From contig CAMBSN010000022.1 in NCBI GenBank assembly GCA_945870505.1, positions 1 through 37,460 of the forward strand: 37,460 bases of DNA. Direction: 5' to 3'. Below the pieces are notes generated by a model, which did not search any database, was not told where the DNA came from, and saw nothing but the letters and a program-made list of their open reading frames with translations. Position 1 is the stretch's first letter, and each line of letters opens with the position of its first letter. This DNA comes from Candidatus Kuenenia stuttgartensis (lineage in GTDB: Bacteria > Planctomycetota > Planctomycetia > Pirellulales > UBA1268). The position numbers and the translations under genes were made by a program. Shown in pieces: positions 1,650 to 35,819 of the stretch.

Positions 1650-1781
1650 GGGGCTGCCCGTGCCCCGGGAGCCGGCGTTGCTGACGAGCGAAGCCATGGA
1701 TGGCGGAGCGAAGTCAGCATCGAGCGAGTGAAGCCCAGGATGGGCGAAGCGAGCGTCCGGCGACGGGGCACGGGCAGCCCC
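1650..1781 (+). repeat. Family A structured repeat, copy A1
   Basis: A 132-bp element bounded by a perfect 17-bp inverted repeat: GGGGCTGCCCGTGCCCC at 1650-1666 and its complement at 1765-1781. Inside are a GCTGAC/GTCAGC stem (1680-1685/1713-1718) enclosing GCCATGGATGGC, and a GCCC-AGGAT-GGGC hairpin (1733-1745). The latter sits in the position of the 9-5-9 hairpin of the other copies but has three central mismatches. GTCCGGCGAC precedes the right arm, as in the other copies. It sits between the convergent 3' ends of the cyclase and corA genes. Confidence 0.85.
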
Positions 1782-1801
1782 GAGCGCCGGCGTGAATCGG
1801 A

Positions 1802-1849
1802 CACAGGTTGCCAACCTGTGCTACGTGATTCACAGGTTGGAAACCTGTG
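1802..1849. repeat. Family B palindromes, two copies
   Basis: CACAGGTTGCCAACCTGTG lies at 1802-1820 and CACAGGTTGGAAACCTGTG at 1831-1849, each followed by CTACG. Each has 8-bp arms around a 3-nt centre. The first begins 20 bases after A1 ends. They end just before the corA stop codon and may act as a bidirectional 3'-end structure; no T-tract is visible. Confidence 0.85.
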
Positions 1850-1857
1850 CTACGGGA

Positions 1858-2958
1858 TCAGTGCCAGCGTTTCAGCCAGCCACGGCGCCAGAAAAACACC
1901 ACCATGGCCACCGTCGTCAACAGCATGATCCCCACCGCCACCAGGCTGCCGTAGCGGAAGTTGAGCAGCGGCATGTTCCAGGGCGACTCGGTGTTGAAGT
2001 TCATCCCGTAGTAGCCGGTGATGAAGGTCAGCGGCATGAAGATGGTGGCGATCACCGTCAGCACCTTCATCACGTCGTTCATCCGGTTGTTGATGCTCGC
2101 AAGGTAGATGTCGCGGAGGTCGCTGCCGATCTCGCGGTAGCCCTCGGTGAGGTCGAGGAGTTCCATGGTGTGGTCGTAGGAGTCGCGGAAGTGCTGCCGG
2201 GCGTGGTCGCCCACGAAGGCGGTCGGCTCGCGGCCGAGGGCATGGAGCACGTCGCGGGTCGGCCAGAGGGCGCGGCGGAGCGTCATCAGGTCGTTGCGGA
2301 CATCGTGGATCTTGCCGAGCAGGTCGCGGGAGGGATTGTCGAGGGCCTGCTCCTCGATCAGCTCGAGCGAGTCGCCGAACTGCTCCAGCACGGGAAAGTA
2401 GCCGTCGATCACGGCGTCGAGGAGCAGAGCACAGAGGTGGTCGGCCCCGAGCTGGCCGATCCGCGTGCGGCCGTGACGGATCCGTTCGCGAACGCTCGCA
2501 AACCCATCGGGCACGGTGCGATCGTGAAACGTGATCACGTAGCGGTCGCCGAGGAAGATCGCCATCGGGTCGGTGACGATCGATTCCCCATCAGACCGGG
2601 CCATCCGCACGGCGATCAGCAACTGGTGGCCGAAGACCTCGACCTTGGGCCGCTCGTCGGGGGTGGTCGCGTCTTCGAGGGCGAGGTCGCCGATCTCGAA
2701 GATCTGCCCCACCGCGCGGATCGTGGCGAGGTCACCGAAGCCGTCCACGTCGAGCCAGACGACCGGCCACTTTTCCCGGGCGATCGTGAGTTCCTGCAGC
2801 GAGAGGACCGGCGACTCGTGGGTGGTGCTGCCGTCACAGGCCGTCAACCGGAGGATCGTTGGCTGGCCGGCGGTGGATGCTGAGGTCGAGAACGCCACGG
2901 CCGGCGCGTCGTGATCGAACCGACGGCGGCGGCGACGGCGTTGTTTGCGGGATGCCAC
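1858..2958 (-). CDS. corA: CorA family magnesium/cobalt transporter
   Basis: The 366-aa inner-membrane divalent cation channel starts at GTG 2958-2956, chosen because GAGGAG lies 6 bases upstream; an in-frame ATG further upstream (3024) would overlap the divergent atp start and adds a non-conserved tail. The N-terminal cytoplasmic funnel begins with a basic run (RKQRRRRRRR). The C-terminus has the two CorA membrane helices, with the selectivity motif Y-G-M-N at 317-320 after the first and a basic tail (WRRGWLKRW) after the second. Length and layout are ordinary for the family. It is transcribed divergently from the ATP synthase operon. Its 3' end abuts family B palindromes. Confidence 0.95.
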   Translation of the reverse strand: MASRKQRRRRRRRFDHDAPAVAFSTSASTAGQPTILRLTACDGSTTHESPVLSLQELTIAREKWPVVWLDVDGFGDLATIRAVGQIFEIGDLALEDATTPDERPKVEVFGHQLLIAVRMARSDGESIVTDPMAIFLGDRYVITFHDRTVPDGFASVRERIRHGRTRIGQLGADHLCALLLDAVIDGYFPVLEQFGDSLELIEEQALDNPSRDLLGKIHDVRNDLMTLRRALWPTRDVLHALGREPTAFVGDHARQHFRDSYDHTMELLDLTEGYREIGSDLRDIYLASINNRMNDVMKVLTVIATIFMPLTFITGYYGMNFNTESPWNMPLLNFRYGSLVAVGIMLLTTVAMVVFFWRRGWLKRWH

Positions 2959-2994
2959 GGAAAGCTCCTCAGTCGACGCGTCACGATACCCGAC

Positions 2995-35100: not shown

Positions 35101-35576
35101 TGCGTCGCGATGTCATCGAGCGTCACCACACAACCACCAGAGCGAGCGGCGGCCTTCTCGATCCGCGGATCCGCAGCCGCTGCCCCCGCTTCGGCCCGCC
35201 GCATGTGGCCGCGGGTGAGCAGGCGGCAGAGGTTGGCGTAGCCGGTATGGTCGGCGGCCCAGAGCACGAGCGGCGGCGCGTCGATGGGCTCGAGAACCGC
35301 GCCCACGATCAGTTTGAGCGCTGGTTTGAGCGCTGGTTTGAGCGCTGGTTTGAGCGCCGGTTTGAGCGCAGAGTTCAACCCGAGGTCTTTCGCGGCGGCA
35401 TGCGCCCGCACGATGCCGGAGAGCGTGCCCCTGTCGGTGATCGCCAGCGCCTCGTAGCCGAGGGCATGCGCCCGCCGCACGAGTTCCTCGGGATGCGACG
35501 CGCCTTCCAGGAAGGAAAAATTGCTCGTGCAGTGCAGTTCCGCGTATCGCGGGCCGATGTCGCCTGCGTCAGTCAT
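32187..35576 (-). CDS. dnaE2: Error-prone DNA polymerase DnaE2 (ImuC), with tandem-repeat insert
   Basis: The 1129-aa C-family polymerase performs translesion synthesis with ImuB. The PHP domain opens at YAELHCTSNFSFLEGAS (11-27), the DnaE2-type N-terminus. The palm holds catalytic D444 and D446 (APDIDIDF), preceded by G-R-G-S-A-A-N-S (405-412). The C-terminal OB-fold region includes I-A-G-I-V-L-T-R-Q-R-P-A-T-A-K-G. The start is ATG 35576, with AAGGA 8 bases upstream. Residues 70-88 hold an ALKP-type four-residue repeat, copied about four times, not found in this family as far as known. imuB lies 306 bases upstream; that gap is filled by repeats. Confidence 0.96.
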   Translation of the reverse strand: MTDAGDIGPRYAELHCTSNFSFLEGASHPEELVRRAHALGYEALAITDRGTLSGIVRAHAAAKDLGLNSALKPALKPALKPALKPALKLIVGAVLEPIDAPPLVLWAADHTGYANLCRLLTRGHMRRAEAGAAAADPRIEKAAARSGGCVVTLDDIATHSAGLLAGAVMPAARRPGRHERHEAFSDAVSGLMAWRDVFGDRLWALAEVALEGDDDDRLAWLEQVAERAGVPLVAAGDVRYHERARLPLFDALAAVRQGQTVEAICESLLPNGERHLHERRRIAGRFAALPTGRGTVDAYGRRFLWPAAVERSAEIAARCTFSLDELKYEYPDAIVPAGRTAGEHLADLAWKGAHKRYPEGVPEKVQGLLRHELALVAELGYEAYFLTVFDVVRFARRRGILCQGRGSAANSCVCYCLGITSVDPTRMNVLFERFVSRERREAPDIDIDFEHHRREEVLQYIYDTYGRSRAAMTAEVISYRLRSAVRDLAKVLGFSLDRVEAIAGVIDVGDHVEDLPTRLAEAGLDPASDACMRLATLVGQLVGFPRHLGQHVGGMVMTRGELCDLVPIQPATMEGRSIVQWNKDDLDELGILKVDCLALGMLTAIHRAFDLVKEAGGPDLTLATVPAEDPAVYEMISRADTVGVFQIESRAQMSMLPRLKPACFYDLVIEVAIVRPGPIQGDMVHPYLRRRAGEELITYPNDAIREVLEKTLGVPLFQEQAMRLAVVAAGFTPGEADQLRRAMGAWRRPGVIDEFHRKLVDGMLTRGLSKQFAEQVFNQIRGFGEYGFPESHAASFALLVYVSAWLKCHHPAAFTAALLGSQPMGFYAPAQLVRDARAHGVTVLPADVNASGWHASLVTRGKSPPWPFPTGSTTGPALRLGLEQVHGLGEAAGLRIEAARRDGPFRLPRDLTQRAEIDRESLLHLARAGALSSLGLDRRRAVWEAMQPQDRVGRRPLLDGLDEDADDDATLLPPTTRQEEVIADYKTGGLSLDAHPLEFERGWLESLGVAPINEAVAAPEGRRVKIAGIVLTRQRPATAKGLFFLTIEDETGAANVVVYPDVWEAAPHPARRAAVLVVHGRIQRRGAVVHVLAMQLEAAVPARTGPGVGSLPCPTPPLAALPRMSRDFC
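35313..35372 (+). repeat. 12-bp tandem repeat inside dnaE2
   Basis: The unit TTTGAGCGCTGG is present as three identical copies (35313-35348), one copy with a single change (35349-35360) and a degenerate fifth (35361-35372). Being a multiple of three, it keeps frame and adds Ala-Leu-Lys-Pro units to the PHP domain. Near-identity of the copies suggests recent slippage. Confidence 0.95.
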
Positions 35577-35633
35577 GATGGTGTTCCTTTCGAGTTGTGT
35601 GTGGGGAGGGAGTCACGACAGACGCGAGCCCGA

Positions 35634-35682
35634 TGCGAATCGGAAAGGCACACAGGTTGACAACCTGTGCTACGAGGAGAGG
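35634..35682. repeat. Left 49-bp direct repeat carrying a family B palindrome
   Basis: The segment from TGCGAATCGG to GAGGAGAGG contains CACAGGTTGACAACCTGTG at 35651-35669. It recurs at 35828-35876 with one mismatch (48 of 49 identical). The two copies flank A5 in the dnaE2-imuB gap. Confidence 0.92.
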
Positions 35683-35688
35683 CAGCGA

Positions 35689-35819
35689 GGGGCTGCTCGT
35701 GCCCGGGAGCCGGGCTATGGGAGCAAGCGAAGCCAGGATGGCGAAGCGCAGCGGACATGCAGTGAGCGGATGCCACGACGGCATCCGCGAACGTCCGGCG
35801 ACGGGGCATGGGCAGCCCC
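35689..35819 (+). repeat. Family A structured repeat, copy A5
   Basis: The arms are GGGGCTGCTCGTGCCC (35689-35704) and GGGCATGGGCAGCCCC (35804-35819). Both imperfect pairs are G.U on the plus strand. Internally there is a GCC-AGGAT-GGC hairpin and a perfect 9-bp stem GCGGATGCC/GGCATCCGC (35766-35774/35780-35788) with loop ACGAC, then GAACGTCCGG. The element strand is opposite to imuB and dnaE2. Confidence 0.88.

Follow-up and report, generated by a model that had tools for sequence, protein, structure and literature searches.

Family A, a dispersed planctomycete DNA element with a fold selected on one strand and an orientation that follows GC skew

Repetitive extragenic palindromes (REPs) and REPINs, moved by the transposase RAYT (TnpA-REP), are described in the portions of the literature used here as units of 20-40 bp with many intergenic copies in convergent and tandem gaps, a 5' foot beside an imperfect hairpin, inverted doublets and a single-strand logic (PMC3733652, PMC6006769). 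According to the same portions, class 3 TnpA-Y1 structures with a CnGA foot and an atypical secondary structure reach high copy numbers in Planctomycetes, Acidobacteria and Proteobacteria, and Y1 transposases use the lagging template (PMC6006769); bacterial miniature inverted-repeat transposable elements (MITEs) such as bcr1, RUP and NEMIS are non-coding, intergenic and folded, with terminal inverted repeats (PMC3733652). Here, we analysed a stretch of 37,460 nucleotides from Candidatus Kuenenia stuttgartensis ('the window'; contig CAMBSN010000022.1 of assembly GCA_945870505.1, positions 1 to 37,460), which holds five copies of an intergenic element named family A, and followed this element through related genomes. 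Family A is a non-coding dispersed DNA element of ~139 nt. We found that it folds into a three-way junction, that this fold is under selection on one strand, and that the orientation of its copies follows GC skew without a clear preference relative to genes. We suggest, with a probability of roughly 45%, that family A is a REP- or MITE-like non-autonomous element of which one folded single strand is selected and which a trans-supplied enzyme spreads at replication forks. The genomes examined are drafts, in which the absence of a gene is no proof; the host metagenome-assembled genome (MAG; 3.35 Mb, 180 contigs) is referred to as G000.

The core of family A consists of the terminal stem P1, an internal loop rich in G.A, a stem of 5 pairs and then a three-way junction, whose two arms are rich in G.A steps. 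P1, by which a preceding sequence-only reading of the window had recognised the five copies, is only the base of this junction and extends ~4 nt further on each side (P0/P1). Read by eye in the alignment, both arms follow a common order of GC step, GNA/GNA internal loop, stem and small loop; for one arm we distinguish at least two classes (TGCTGAC..GTCAGCA and GGGCTATGGGAGC..GCGGACATGC), and some copies have 26 nt more at the tip of this arm. When 115 distinct copies were fitted to a covariance model, 94.8% of cells were paired, 39 of the 47 pairs showed double changes, and the covariation score was 0.307, while shuffled controls scored 0.112 and slid structures no more than 0.051; this bears out in a larger alignment the covariation proposed from five copies. 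For helix 4 the paired share is 83.7%, in part because the model pairs the second arm class poorly. The sense strand is predicted to form the more stable fold in 86/88 copies as RNA and in 88/88 as DNA; for the five window copies its folding z ranges from -6.0 to -9.5, which exceeds chance, with weaker values for the opposite strand (-3.6 to -7.5).

Pairing continues beyond the core. Positions -4..-1 and +1..+4 pair as GCGA/GAGC in 47, GTGA/GAAC in 39, GCTC/GAGC in 14, GCGA/TCGC in 13 and GCTT/AAGC in 13 of 227 copies. The inner dinucleotides are GA/GA (tandem G.A) in 116 of these copies, followed by the Watson-Crick combinations TC/GA (22), GA/TC (20) and TT/AA (14); GA/GG (12) and others are neither. 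The foot at -4..-1 is GCGA in 79, GTGA in 52, GCTC in 20 and GCTT in 13 copies, and conservation drops within ~6 nt outside the core if genera are pooled and within ~10 nt in the genus of G028.

The sequence-only reading had argued for selection on one folded single strand because all imperfect terminal pairs were G.U, and its coordinates and strands for all five copies proved correct. Non-Watson-Crick pairs of P1 comprise two G.T/T.G pairs in A3, one in A4, two in A5 and not a single A.C, and pair 11 is G-C in A1, A-T in A2 and A3 and G.T in A4 and A5, as it had described. The terminal stems pair as it had stated, except that the A-T pair of A4 is assigned to column pair 18, and not 17, of the fitted alignment, in which A4 and A5 have a one-base length gap each in P1. 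Beyond the window, A.C is far from being as frequent as G.U: P1 contains 52 G.U versus 2 A.C in 38 further copies of G000, and 88 versus 7 in 72 copies of other genomes (fitted alignment). Counted from the ends of all 227 copies, window included and without a fitted alignment, 13 terminal pairs gave 2659 Watson-Crick, 189 G.U, 17 A.C and 86 other mismatched combinations; pair 11 is AT in 80, GC in 66 and GT in 62 copies, and pair 12 is TA in 160 and TG in 47. The same preference appears among close relatives. Using 226 of the 227 copies (one with fewer than 9 intact pairs was dropped), we obtained 68 pairs of near neighbours differing at no more than 9 positions, in which 55 changes were between G.U and Watson-Crick, 15 double Watson-Crick, 14 between Watson-Crick and another mismatch, 5 between A.C and Watson-Crick and 2 between G.U and a mismatch. 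A mutation bias of the C-rich strand (G to A, T to C) would be expected to favour A.C, so that strand-biased mutation does not explain the excess of G.U. Covariation, the prevalence of G.U over A.C and the predominance of tandem G.A or Watson-Crick combinations in the flanks back selection for the fold on one strand.

The orientation of the copies is tied to GC skew, a bias that as a rule indicates the direction of replication, and not to genes; this relation goes beyond what had been read from the window. For each copy, skew was calculated from third codon positions no more than 30 kb away, with a correction for gene strand and with genes called by our own hexamer script here and in the placement analysis. 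The hypothesis arose in G018 and was then tested on all stretches and again without this genome. The sense strand is the C-rich strand in 64/88 copies (two-sided p = 2.4e-5), in 51/66 at |skew| >=0.02, in 31/36 at >=0.04 and in 47/62 solitary copies; a sign-flip test by contig gave a one-sided p of 0.0001 (36 contigs). Without G018, the bias is 46/69 (two-sided p = 0.008; sign-flip p = 0.005), with 38/52 and 25/30 at the two thresholds. By genome, the values are 18/19 in G018 (the lone discordant copy is C3:201467), 29/42 in G000, 9/14 in G130 and 5/8 in G028, and in the small samples 2/3 in G015, 1/1 in G012 and 0/1 in G009. Contig C10 of G018 has a sign change of the skew, with one + copy before and two - copies after it. 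Ten pairs of full copies lie within 400 bp of each other, six head-to-head, four tandem and none tail-to-tail; each head-to-head pair (four in G130, A3/A4 and the G015 ortholog of A3/A4) counts once each way in the skew tally.

With regard to genes, 40 of 42 copies in G000 could be classed (one lies at an edge, one overlaps a gene), 20 in convergent and 20 in tandem gaps, with 48/260 gaps being divergent; in G018, 13 of 16 could be classed (two at an edge, one overlapping a gene), four in convergent and nine in tandem gaps, with 91/507 gaps divergent. None of these 53 copies lies in a divergent gap, a REP-type avoidance of divergent promoters. In tandem gaps, family A has the direction of the genes 11 times and the opposite one 9 times in G000, and 7 and 2 times in G018; these 18 same and 11 opposite copies agree with the earlier observation that both orientations occur.

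Family A is wider than the five copies had suggested, being spread across one planctomycete family. BLAST with A1 yielded 42 matches in G000, counting A1 itself and one fragment (226 first-look candidates, of which 40 were scored). An iterated profile found 42 full-length copies in 420 kb of G000 stretches, a sample picked for holding copies and hence no measure of genome-wide density. In G018, 800 kb of contigs, most of them known as long from earlier matches, contain 16 full copies. A DNA pattern scan of named genomes detected at least 110 stretches, and the 80 titles among the matches listed were all planctomycete MAGs. The search of relatives with a covariance model (R1), which the sequence-only reading had suggested, was run with stricter filters at the cost of weak matches and was positive in 44/50 genomes drawn from the host's GTDB family and in none of 196 other genomes of its order (182 of them counted only, not listed). 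Terminal inverted repeats, many copies and no coding capacity, as judged from the 139-nt length, are MITE-type traits. We found no report of the element in open-licence papers. A known Rfam family was rejected, as the whole window gave only one match above gathering score, a tRNA at 215-285, and none on family A, with further matches at chance level only.

Comparison of orthologous sites showed that occupancy and content of these sites differ between relatives. G015 has orthologs of A3, A4 and A5 but not of A2, whose site there holds another repeat; in the place of A5, G002 carries a copy of a different type, which shares 80% identity with the G015 copy. A4 and its G015 ortholog have one wholly different arm, with an agreeing upstream flank and P1 pairing kept, and in A3 both outer flanks changed together (GCGA/TCGC versus GCTC/GAGC). 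At L026:18222, the G015 site is occupied by a copy of another class, and at L026:15955 a copy inside an array of family B, a GTAG hairpin described below, is lacking as a block in G015. Of 19 dnaE loci compared within the genus, among them the host's own and some truncated at contig ends, 14 gave no match to family A. In 21 ortholog pairs, hand-picked from 53 two-flank pairs after same-element pairs were dropped and with some elements recurring, we counted 53 double and 28 single changes that kept pairing, and 32 single and 20 double changes that broke it, the latter partly because arm-class swaps are unpairable by the model. Double C-G/G-C changes and whole-arm swaps occur even between 97%-identical copies. 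Arm swaps, paired changes and occupancy differences indicate that copies appear and disappear and are altered in situ through exchange or compensation; the occupancy differences thereby support the proposed mobility, or loss.

Table 1. Positions of family A copies and neighbouring family B hairpins in the window
Feature	Position	Strand	Remarks
A1	1646..1785	+	core 1650-1781; outer GCGA/GAGC (tandem G.A) at 1646-1649/1782-1785
A1, P1 arms	1650-1667 and 1764-1781	+	18 pairs
A2	12685..12823	+	core 12689-12819; outer GCTC/GAGT
A3	31687..31827	-	core 31691-31823; outer GCGA/TCGC (Watson-Crick)
A4	31927..32064	+	core 31931-32060; outer GCGA/GAGC; head-to-head with A3
A5	35685..35823	+	core 35689-35819; outer GCGA/GAGC
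Two family B hairpins	1797..1854	-	CACAGGTTnnnAACCTGTG, GTAG end on - strand; downstream of A1
Three family B hairpins in tandem	11471..11557	+	GTAG in second and third
Family B hairpin	32078..32109	-	3' side of A4; missing in G015
Family B hairpin	35646..35674	-	upstream of A5; lacking here in the G015 alignment
Family B hairpin	35840..35868	-	downstream of A5; present in G015

Many copies of family A in G000 have family B within 260 bp on either side. A strict pattern for this hairpin gave 98 matches, 87 in G000 and 11 in G130, and none in the stretches of G018, G028, G012, G009 and G015:C30, all of which hold family A; G015 has B elsewhere, plus a diverged B beside A5. At |skew| >=0.02, the GTAG strand of B is on the G-rich strand in 39/58 matches (p = 0.012), whereas the full set of 98 shows no significant bias (43 opposite, p = 0.27). 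If the G-rich strand leads, GTAG of B would lie on the lagging template, as for Y1 transposases, and the folding strand of A would not. On both sides of the B hairpin 3' of A4 (window 32045-32128 compared with L275) stands a 9-bp CCCCGAGCC repeat, of which G015 has a single copy, a pattern suggestive of an insertion or a loss of B.

Further repeats were seen at or around these elements. Ends of an insertion sequence (IS; CAATCCTGTTCGGCA...) lie in or at the P4 loop of A in 3/11 pattern matches, namely L355:4200-5190 (G000:C3, found by eye, with transposase-like remnants by eye), L090:452 and L073 (reverse strand) 338, the latter two tagged by script; this resembles the targeting of REPs by IS in the part of the literature consulted (PMC1525189). 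At L304:8526, L312:17517 (G018) and L331:15089 (G130), a larger palindrome that ends in TACGGCTCACACTTGA...TCAAGTGTGAGCCGTA encloses family A, in some cases beside TA; it may be another MITE-like unit carrying A. Such an outer palindrome is no general rule, as a copy's own flanks scored >=24 in 3/19 copies of G018, 1/13 of G130, 0/6 of G028, 8/40 of G000 and 7/141 others, and flanks of other G000 copies score equally (16%) because of B. At sites where G000 has A or B, G015 has a repeat with ends like AAGCCCCGAGCGnnAGCGAGGGGAT...ATCCCCTCGCT...GCTCGGGGCTTCC (L274 near 4163-4339 and 5493-5671, and L280). A RAYT-type gene at L025:2830-3640 is bordered by inverted AAAAAGGTGCCAGCCACCAAATCTGGGTA repeats, apparently of another REP family. 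Finally, the dnaE reading frame of the window contains five 12-bp units of type GTTTGAGCGCTG at 35312-35371.

How does family A compare with the described systems? Its abundance and intergenic placement are like those of REPs, REPINs and MITEs, and its close head-to-head pairs resemble some REP doublets as portrayed in the cited portions, but with ~139 nt and a three-way junction it differs from the short REPs and REPINs (PMC3733652, PMC6006769). In place of the GTAG foot of REPs it has mostly GCGA or GTGA, it lies on the strand opposite to adjacent GTAG repeats, and neither GTAG nor CGTC is among the 20 commonest 4-mers at -4..-1 (n = 227). With class 3 TnpA-Y1 structures it shares occurrence in Planctomycetes, high copy number, an atypical secondary structure and a foot ending in GA (PMC6006769). 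In contrast to CnGA, however, its foot is mostly GNGA (position -4 is G in 202/227 copies), CGGA being the sole CNGA among the 20 commonest 4-mers (2/227), so that kinship with this class is a lead and not a membership; Y1 proteins were searched with the general PF01797 profile. Bacterial MITEs, as far as covered by the cited source, are matched in being non-coding, intergenic and folded with terminal inverted repeats (PMC3733652), whereas for family A no target duplication or parent transposon was found among the loci searched, and it has a strand-specific fold and a skew-linked orientation. Unlike for REPs, no RAYT was found in many carriers: PF01797 is absent from 7/11 draft genomes of the genus that are >=92% complete, all seven of which carry A, and this led us to reject RAYT as a general mover. 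The PF01797 gene of L025 is ~5.8 kb from the nearest full copy and ~3 kb from a partial one, and loci L369-L372, around four weaker PF01797 matches, contain no A. Retroposition by an ordinary reverse transcriptase, similar to short interspersed nuclear elements, was likewise rejected, since PF00078 is absent from 26/35 draft genomes including G000, G018 and G028.

We thus suggest that the sense strand of family A would fold while single-stranded at the replication fork, and that a trans-supplied enzyme would spread or replace copies there. We favour such a folded single-stranded DNA stage because orientation is linked to skew and not clearly to genes, and because the fold belongs to a single strand. 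Several observations weigh against this proposal. The seven PF01797-negative carriers are one of them; another is that no autonomous parent was found in ~3.67 Mb of partly overlapping loci (whole genomes were not searched), in which four split copies with gaps of 71-79 and 713 bp were detected. At orthologous sites we saw no clean empty site or target duplication, other repeats being present there. 24/88 copies point the other way, and G130 and G028 taken alone are unconvincing for the skew bias. The leading strand is not fixed by rpoB, whose direction agrees with that of the G-rich strand in G012 and disagrees in G018, and around which G000 and G028 lack a clear skew; coding bases are on the G-rich strand to 55.7%, and dnaA was not found at the skew switch of G018:C10 when the first residues of predicted proteins were read, without a family search. 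Were the G-rich strand leading, the folding strand would be the leading-strand template and not the lagging one used by Y1 transposases, and within 260 bp B is on the strand opposite to A in 51/52 neighbour pairs. In a bolder version of the fork proposal, family A would be a mobile structured nucleic acid with a new, replication-coupled spreading system that uses neither RAYT nor ordinary reverse transcriptase, a G.A-rich junction opposite the classical Y1 strand and whole-arm swaps in place, which we regard as unlikely.

The same fold could also act as RNA, whose sense transcript, made by read-through or from its own promoter, would stabilise mRNA 3' ends, bind a protein or act in trans, an explanation that we consider doubtful but worth serious attention. 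Pairs 11 and 12 are often G.U, which suits RNA, predictions in both chemistries give the sense strand the better fold, and the copies, being in convergent or tandem gaps, lie 3' of at least one gene. The orientation could then be a secondary effect, if the stronger hairpin were counter-selected on the lagging-strand template: with the sense strand predicted as the better folder, it is mostly the weaker strand that coincides with the G-rich one. Yet the RNA explanation is at odds with the lack of a clear orientation relative to genes, with the absence of any visible conserved promoter, as conservation ends so close to the core, and with the missing Rfam match in the window. It is very unlikely that family A is a passenger moved together with the GTAG repeats by RAYT as a B-A-B composite. 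The frequent flanking by B in G000, its nearly constant opposite strand and the block missing at L026:15955 fit such a composite, but as a general rule it was rejected, given stretches with A and without strict B; in addition, RAYT is absent from the seven genus members, that of L025 is flanked by a different repeat, and copies in G028 suggest recent insertions of A without B.

Two further explanations account for single aspects. A polar signal for chromosome organisation comparable to FtsK-orienting polar sequences (KOPS), with one orientation per replichore, would yield the skew bias of the pooled stretches; we find it highly unlikely, as the places of A are unconserved (see the dnaE loci), the 24 discordant copies run against it, and a short DNA signal has no need of a covarying three-way junction. 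Most unlikely is that the fold is not selected at all and that template-switch correction of quasi-palindromes plus gene conversion keep the stems paired. This process is favoured by the double C-G/G-C changes and whole-arm swaps seen at orthologous sites, even between nearly identical copies, but it leaves unexplained the ratio of G.U to A.C, overall and between near neighbours, and the use of tandem G.A where flanks are not Watson-Crick.

Dispersed bacterial repeats are usually pictured as short palindromes or decayed transposons. Family A is instead a full covarying three-way junction, and many of the lineages that carry it show no matching transposase. Whether such repeats are spread by folded single-stranded DNA at the fork or by RNA thereby becomes testable, and the covariance model of family A provides a means to look for the enzyme.

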